This document shows, in pieces, positions 23,458 to 59,168 of a stretch of DNA of 64,000 bases. The notes below the pieces were generated by a model, which was not told the origin of the DNA, did no database searches, and saw only the letters and a program-made list of their open reading frames with translations. How positions within the stretch are numbered: position 1 is the stretch's first letter; each line of letters begins with the position of its first letter. Source of the stretch: an uncultured Erythrobacter sp. Lineage in GTDB: Bacteria > Pseudomonadota > Alphaproteobacteria > Sphingomonadales > Sphingomonadaceae. Both the position numbers and the translations under genes were made by a program. The stretch is taken from contig CANMMR010000003.1 in assembly GCA_947499095.1 (NCBI GenBank), positions 353,201 to 417,200 of the forward strand, in the 5' to 3' direction.

Positions 23458-23689
23458 GGTTTTTGTTGGGTTTTTGCTGGGTGCGCCTTCGACATCCGTC
23501 GAATGCTTGCGGCACCGGCCCACTCCCCCACCCGACCACCCATAGAATACCGTGCCGTGGGTGGTCGGGTGGGGGAGTGGGCCGGTACCGAAGGGAAGCA
23601 CGGATGTGCTGACCGCACGCAAACAATGACTTCGCGGGACGGAACAGCCGAGGTAAGCGCGGATGCGCTTCACGCACCCAACAAAAACC
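23458..23689 (-). repeat. Structured non-coding element C with 14-bp terminal inverted repeats and an 81-bp near-perfect palindrome
   Basis: GGTTTTTGTTGGGT (23458-23471) is the reverse complement of ACCCAACAAAAACC (23676-23689); palindrome 23510-23590; hairpins 23488-23503, 23597-23610, 23655-23670. Confidence 0.9.
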
Positions 23690-58042: not shown

Positions 58043-58363
58043 TCATTCGTCGGGACGCTTGTTTGCCGCGCGGATAATGTTCCTGAAGGCCACGATTATT
58101 CCGAGGAACAATCCGACCAACAGACCCCAGGGCGATGTGCCGGCAAACCAGTCTACGGTCCACCCGATCACCGCGCCGCCGAGAATACCGCCCAGAAGGT
58201 CAGCCAATACCCGGTTGCCGGAGCGATAATTCGCATCCGCACCCGACATTTTCGGCTGGTTACGCTGATTTTCGCGCTGCTGGGCGGCATTGAGCCGCTG
58301 TTCCAGCGCGTCGATCCGCGCATCCTCCTCGATGGTTTCTCGTGCAGGCTTGTCGTCGCTCAT
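58043..58363 (-). CDS. atpI: ATP synthase protein I (AtpI/AtpZ-like)
   Basis: LADLLGGILGGAVIGWTVDWFAGTSPWGLLVGLFLGIIVAFRNI. Confidence 0.9.
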   Translation of the reverse strand: MSDDKPARETIEEDARIDALEQRLNAAQQRENQRNQPKMSGADANYRSGNRVLADLLGGILGGAVIGWTVDWFAGTSPWGLLVGLFLGIIVAFRNIIRAANKRPDE

Positions 58364-58548
58364 GCCAGGCTCCTTTGAAGGGGGTTGCGCGGCACGGGCA
58401 CGGACTTGCCCGCCGAGGGCGCCGCCCCCTTAGAAGGGGGGCATTGGGGAGTCAACATGAAGAGGGTGGGAAAAGGGGAGGTTTTGTGGGGTGCGGTCAG
58501 AAGATCCGTCCCGACCTTGCTATTCCGTCCCACAACCTTACCCGGAGT

Positions 58549-58763
58549 CTTTGTTGGGTGCGCTATCGACATCCGTCGATAGCTTGCGGCTCTGGCCCAC
58601 TCCCCCACCCGACCACCCATAGAATACCGTGCCGTGGGTGGTCGGGTGGGGGAGTGGGCCGGAGCCGAAGGGGAGCACGGATGTGCTTCCCGAACGCAAA
58701 TATGATCCCGCGTGGGCTGGTGCCGCTAAGGAAAGCGCGTATGCGCTTTCCGCACGCAACAAA
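58549..58763 (-). repeat. Structured non-coding element D, second copy of element C
   Basis: 69 bp (58594-58662) identical to 23517-23585; palindrome 58587-58667; hairpins 58562-58583, 58671-58691, 58730-58751; TTTGTTGGGTGCG/CGCACGCAACAAA ends. Confidence 0.9.
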
Positions 58764-59168
58764 TTACGGACAACGCGAATCCCGCATAGGCGGTGCACTC
58801 GTGCGGGTCTCCCAGCTACCGCTAGGCGCCTGATACTTCTCGCCCGGTGAAGTCGCCAGGATCGCCTGGCAGCCGGCGGTCAGCGCGTACTCTTCCAGCG
58901 TCGCATTGGTCGCCTTCGCGCGCTCGGCATAGACCGCACGGCGCTTGATATTGATATCGTTGACGAGGCGCTGGAGTTCCGGCGTGCTCGCACCGACGAT
59001 GCCGAGATAGCCGTCCATCTTCTCGCCCACCTGCCCGGCGGAACGCGCTGCGGCATAGGCGGGATCGCGCTGGGCGAAGGCCGGGGTCGCGAGGCCGCCG
59101 ATGGCGGTCGCGATCGCGACGCCTGCCAGCAGGCCCTTGGAAATTCGCTTGGTCATCATGTCACCCAT
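58764..59168 (-). CDS. YdbL family (DUF1318) periplasmic protein
   Basis: Signal peptide; DGYLGIVGASTPELQRLVNDINIKRRAVYAERA; next to YnbE-like and YdbH-like genes. Confidence 0.8.
   Translation of the reverse strand: MGDMMTKRISKGLLAGVAIATAIGGLATPAFAQRDPAYAAARSAGQVGEKMDGYLGIVGASTPELQRLVNDINIKRRAVYAERAKATNATLEEYALTAGCQAILATSPGEKYQAPSGSWETRTSAPPMRDSRCP

Follow-up and report, generated by a model that had tools for sequence, protein, structure and literature searches.

The intergenic region between ydbL and atpI holds a strongly palindromic element, D, which closely resembles a second element, C, elsewhere in the window (the whole analyzed stretch of DNA, 64,000 nt), while the stems of the two differ in sequence. 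Covariation is the standard proof of a selected RNA structure. The locus raises the question whether such paired changes betray an RNA that is conserved for its fold or a DNA palindrome that evolves as such.

Boundaries and Fold of Elements D and C

The placement of D between ydbL and atpI was borne out, as was its start directly after the ydbL stop codon. In contrast, the interval 58549-58763, taken as element D in the preliminary description, proved to be composite: D proper covers only 58550-58703, and 58704-58763 is half of an older copy. The features are as follows.

58043-58363, minus strand: atpI/atpZ-like gene (ATPase_gene1, AtpZ/I-like protein), followed by ATP synthase subunit a
58482-58545, plus strand: older copy, left half; CCCGG joins AGTCTTTG at its junction, as in other nested copies
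58482-58495, plus strand: older copy, left inverted end TTTTGTGGGGTGCG
58495-58516, plus strand: older copy, decayed end hairpin GGTCAGAAG-ATCC-GTCCCGACC
58517-58545, plus strand: older copy, left arm remnant, with CCCGG at its end
58550-58703, plus strand: element D proper, complete copy (covariance model R1: 152.5 bits, E 4e-37, D being one of the 62 training rows)
58550-58561, plus strand: D left inverted end TTTGTTGGGTGC
58562-58583, plus strand: D left end hairpin GCTATCGAC-ATCC-GTCGATAGC, type A
58587-58667, plus strand: D central hairpin, arms 58587-58619 and 58635-58667 (33 bp, 97% complementary)
58620-58634, plus strand: D central-hairpin loop TAGAATACCGTGCCG
58670-58691, minus strand: D right end hairpin, type C, from the right end inward GGGAAGCAC-ATCC-GTGCTCCCC
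58692-58703, minus strand: D right inverted end, decayed (GAACGCAAATAT)
58704-58763, plus strand: older copy, right half, including arm remnant CGTGGGCTGGTGCCGC
58730-58751, plus strand: older copy, right hairpin GGAAAGCGC-GTAT-GCGCTTTCC
58752-58763, plus strand: older copy, right inverted end GCACGCAACAAA, adjoining the ydbL stop codon
58764-59168, minus strand: ydbL (DUF1318), stop codon TAA at 58764-58766
23473-23626, plus strand: element C proper, complete copy (covariance model: 149.2 bits)
23628-23689, plus strand: older copy beside C, right half

D is indeed a second copy of C, both being complete copies of one repeat, and the covariance model scan finds no further complete copy in the window. 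The two agree at 139 of 154 positions, and sequence comparison confirmed the 69 bp shared exactly by 58594-58662 and 23517-23585. Both reported swaps are present in the sequence: T-A in the left hairpin of one copy faces A-T in the other, and the outer central stem has A-T against T-A. The claim that the differing stems still pair is clean for these two swaps but not at three other positions, namely a C.T mismatch in the left hairpin of C (GCCTTCGAC/GTCGAATGC), one mismatch in its outer palindrome (CGGCACCGG/CCGGTACCG) and a G.T wobble in the outer palindrome of D (CGGCTCTGG/CCGGAGCCG). Moreover, the left hairpins represent two stem types (GCCTTCGAC and GCTATCGAC), each common to many copies; the difference between D and C is one between widespread stem types, and not a private pair of point changes.

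The DNA fold of 58549-58770 reaches -88.5 kcal/mol, compared with -41.4 +/- 3.4 for shuffles (z -13.8), and the fold energy of C is also far below that of its shuffles (z -12.2). At D, the repeat fold scores well on both strands.

Anatomy and Distribution of the Repeat Family

A complete copy consists of an inverted end, an end hairpin, TT(G), a central hairpin, a second end hairpin and an inverted end, and can fold as a cloverleaf with weakly kept inverted ends (~12 bp), two unlike end hairpins and one long central hairpin. The constant head, or inverted end, is TTTGTTGSGTGC (12 nt). End hairpins have a 9-bp stem and mostly an ATCC loop, while the central hairpin has arms of 31-33 bp around a 15-nt loop, the outer part of the arms being of two types, CGGCACCRGCCC or GCTGTTCCRTCCC. 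The inverted ends vary, are 75% paired in the 62-copy alignment and add little to the covariation. In G257, which belongs to another genus, the same architecture is built from entirely different stems, e.g., GCTGATCGC and GCCAATCGC.

BLAST of the genome returned 46 alignments at ~25 places, and the covariance model at least 48 matches over both strands, i.e., at least 24 places. A scan of a 2.0-Mb part of the sister genome G036 gave 44 candidate end units, of which a few are due to chance (a shuffled contig gave 4). Matches occur in 40 of the 61 sampled genomes of the genus, the rich ones holding at least 20 places, and in 46 of 151 genomes of the order, of which the distant ones may hold the central hairpin only. 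Named records comprise Erythrobacter, Qipengyuania, Altererythrobacter, Pontixanthobacter, Aurantiacibacter and Novosphingobium. The repeat belongs to Erythrobacteraceae and Novosphingobium, and weaker relatives are spread across Sphingomonadales. Pattern matches in Sporosarcina, Anaerolineae and Chitinophaga were dismissed as chance, the hairpin being absent there. As far as we found in open-access papers, the family has not been described.

Pairing Is Kept While Stems Change

The 177 end units, collected by their ends and arm motif with pairing left unused, are 83% Watson-Crick paired versus 48% upon shuffling (maximum 54% in 1000) and include 21 distinct perfect stems. In alignment A1 (62 copies), the three hairpins are 94-96% paired, with 382 double-changed cells versus 142 in shuffles and a covariation score of 0.288 versus 0.119 in shuffles and at most 0.059 when slid. 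As the copies of the family are related, shuffles of this kind overstate significance. The spacer between rpsL and rpsG offers a further case: nine genera carry nine different left arms there, with stems still paired (89%, against 51% in 2000 shuffles that never exceeded 76%). The larger alignment with shuffled controls, proposed in the preliminary description, thus gave a strong signal in the 62 copies, the 177 units and at rpsL-rpsG, and the null outcome did not occur.

The further proposition that compensatory pairs imply a maintained structure survives in part. Pairing is kept, as the covariation in all three hairpins demonstrates, but for a near-perfect palindrome maintenance by selection does not follow from it. 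Through template switching between hairpin arms, both partners of a pair change in a single event (PMC8794818), and spacers become inverted (PMC8604942). Compensatory changes alone are no proof of a selected RNA structure, as an identical trace results from template switching and from conversion, and covariation cannot separate RNA from DNA constraint.

The rpsL-rpsG spacer suggests that selection on structure, be it RNA or DNA, acts on some copies at least, and the copy there is a candidate for a domesticated or regulatory one. Such a structure occupies this spacer in about one third of 30 genera (L330, L334, L342, L344, L346, L348, L353, L357 and L359), directly before a conserved CACTCCGAAGGAGTT..ATG in which the ribosome-binding site of rpsG can pair in a small hairpin. 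In other genera, the spacer is 28 nt long or contains unrelated palindromes.

The Two Ends of a Copy Are Never Alike

In none of 110 complete copies (62 + 48) are the two end hairpins alike. Those of the 62 copies share at most 14 of 22 letters; under random assortment of ends, 20.4 copies with 15 or more letters alike would be expected, and the minimum in 5000 shuffles is 9. The 48 further copies, taken from other genomes, likewise contain no alike pair, with 11.8 expected and a minimum of 2. Two apparent like-ended exceptions turned out to be end units of nested copies that are not partners.

If the ends were alike, the hairpins would merge into a single palindrome with roughly 70-75 bp per arm, and like-ended copies are probably lost via replication blockage and SbcCD-type cleavage. 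A heterodimer preference with "no obvious explanation" is known from the GTAG and CGTC super-families of REP/BIME (PMC3733652), and for this milder bias in REP dimers Di Nocera and colleagues proposed clearance by SbcCD (PMC3733652). The exceptionless rule described here turns the unexplained REP-dimer tendency (PMC3733652) into a testable statement: for a palindrome of such size to survive, its end modules must be unable to pair mutually.

Places Are Kept While Their Content Changes

Site comparisons were run against the sister genome G036. Flanks could be matched in G036 for 15 loci of G000. Of these, 13 hold the repeat in both genomes; L018, which has a bare central hairpin in G000, corresponds to an empty site in G036, and L021 is replaced there by another repeat. 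For complete copies of five genomes, the site is occupied in all 23 comparisons, which are not independent, as several share a site (~12 distinct sites). Flank identity is ~89-99%. In only ~8 of the 23 are both end types retained, and in 15 end types are swapped. Three sites have the same end types in both species but, in place, an inverted central loop relative to G036: the inversion is exact at L005 and L028 and diverged at L015. The stem of L009 is chimeric, with the left arm of one type and the right arm of the other, and such stems point to recombination between copies.

The sites of D and C display the same diversity. At the orthologous place of D, the genomes G036, G077 and G002 share the outer ends of the older copy and carry other versions inside these similar ends, while G071 (L064, the ydbL-atpI spacer) has ~450 bp of unrelated sequence instead of the repeat. 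The element is absent from this site in G076, G080 and G007, where a terminator-like hairpin is found, although G076 has 20 family matches elsewhere. The site of C holds differing versions in G071, G077 and G036 and a remnant in G002, and is empty in G076, G007, G031 and G067.

D is nested in the older, split copy, with CCCGG joined to AGTCTTTG at the left junction. This junction and its mirror, ACT joined to CCGGG, recur at other sites, and it seems that incoming copies took the place of the tip of an older central hairpin. A preference for insertion into the tips of target hairpins, an idea drawn from L004 and L018, was abandoned, as the flanks of the 62 copies have no extra complementarity. 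At L018, the bare central hairpin of G000 lies within the tip of a stem resembling a terminator, and the corresponding place in G036 (C2:473588-473664) is empty.

Nature of the Repeat and Rival Explanations

With moderate confidence, we read the family as a REP/MITE-like, non-coding, dispersed palindromic DNA repeat, for which a transposase was not found and which changes mainly in place. Its copies would have arisen by past transposition through an enzyme not found here. At present, template switching between the arms would keep them complementary and invert the loop, while conversion or recombination between dispersed copies would swap hairpin types; both processes are read from the patterns of change, and the structure is probably kept mainly at the DNA level. 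As neither a transposase nor a target-site duplication nor a clean empty site was found for any complete copy, mobility is inferred from dispersal only. The flanks of the copies show no common signal. Gene orientation around copies was left out, because a simple ORF caller reads through GC-rich palindromes.

Transposition in the narrower sense of a MITE, i.e., of non-autonomous insertion-sequence copies mobilized by a transposase recognizing the 12-nt inverted ends, could explain these ends, the dispersal, the nested copies and the shared end junctions. We regard it as possible, yet somewhat unlikely: the sites are old and shared, the ends vary and are incompletely paired, no target-site duplication was noticed, and a non-exhaustive search of 2.0 Mb of G036 revealed no long element bounded by the ends of the family that could act as autonomous partner. 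An RNA-level element is unlikely. Here, a transcribed cloverleaf would protect or process mRNA 3' ends or regulate the downstream gene, with selection on RNA pairing producing the compensatory changes. This would agree with the strong covariation, with the location of both D and C just after a stop codon and with the copy between rpsL and rpsG, which is paired in nine genera and immediately followed by the ribosome-binding site of rpsG. However, neither the position at D nor the hairpin type is conserved, nearby species carry other versions at D, and element-free relatives have an ordinary terminator; furthermore, the fold is good on both strands, and loops that are inverted in place require a mechanism acting on DNA. 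The only Rfam match in the window at or above the gathering score of its family is a tRNA, and D yields none. Weak matches at D to microRNA models, far below gathering, were discarded as hits of generic long-hairpin models.

Intrinsic termination of transcription is hard to reconcile with the absence of a hairpin followed by a T run from either strand of 58300-58900, and we consider it highly improbable, even though element-free relatives have a terminator after ydbL and copy-bearing species do not. Equally remote is a REP/BIME moved by RAYT (Y1 tyrosine transposase), despite the head-to-head hairpin units, the constant head, the mosaic pairs and the heterodimers also described for REPs (PMC3733652). 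Y1_Tnp is present in only 6 of 61 genomes of the genus and in none of the eight element-rich ones (G002, G005, G021, G036, G064, G071, G072 and G077), and the GTAG or CGTC tag is absent; RAYT is not the present mover of the repeat. The Y1 locus of G000 has other flanks, without repeat units, and is unrelated to the repeat. At that locus (C6:76396-77017; L031, L032), a partial 5' duplicate lies upstream of the Y1 transposase gene, and both are preceded by TTCCGGGGACAGTATACTTAATTG.

Finally, a dedicated recombination or replication process might fix the sites, swap end modules, nest copies in old central stems and enforce unlike ends. We hold this to be distinctly unlikely; if true, the family would be a cassette set in structured DNA, unlike an ordinary transposon.

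Relation to Known Repeats

The dispersed REP/MITE-like reading places the family beside several known systems. As in REP/BIME (PMC3733652), short intergenic hairpin units are arranged mostly as head-to-head pairs with spacer hairpins, and under a broad definition of REP/BIME, which covers hairpin units dispersed between genes and frequently arranged as inverted pairs, the repeat belongs with them. It differs from the GTAG and CGTC types by its own head, TTTGTTGSGTGC, in place of such a tag, by its 12-nt inverted ends, a fixed long central hairpin, many stem types and the lack of a RAYT, and by a heterodimer rule that is exceptionless in 110 copies.

A REPIN is a RAYT-dependent inverted pair of REPs, whose two alike units form one larger palindrome. 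The present repeat also combines two inverted hairpin units in one larger palindrome, but its units are never alike and RAYT is absent. Bacterial MITEs such as Correia, NEMIS and RUP are non-coding, dispersed, intergenic and bounded by terminal inverted repeats. The repeat shares all these features (12-nt ends, 75% paired), whereas its three hairpins and diversified stems set it apart, and no parent insertion sequence or target-site duplication was found.

With hairpins shaped by template switching (PMC8794818, PMC8604942), the family has in common multibase compensatory changes, homogenization of arms and inversion of the spacer. Those studies concern RNA genes and yeast coding sequence, in contrast to a dispersed bacterial repeat. 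With more than 100 copies, many of them at one site in several species, template switching, gene conversion and selection become separable, and hairpins that are swapped while copies stay put make the repeat a good natural test of the evolution of DNA palindromes.

Variants of the architecture were also observed. In G114 (L462-L467), a variant family follows the same central-hairpin plan with other end hairpins, e.g., AAAATGCGC-CAAT-GCGCATTTT and AAATCCGGC-TTT-GCCGGATTT. A solo version at C1:729461-729507 of G036 has one hairpin between both inverted ends; its counterpart in G000, L013, is a complete copy.
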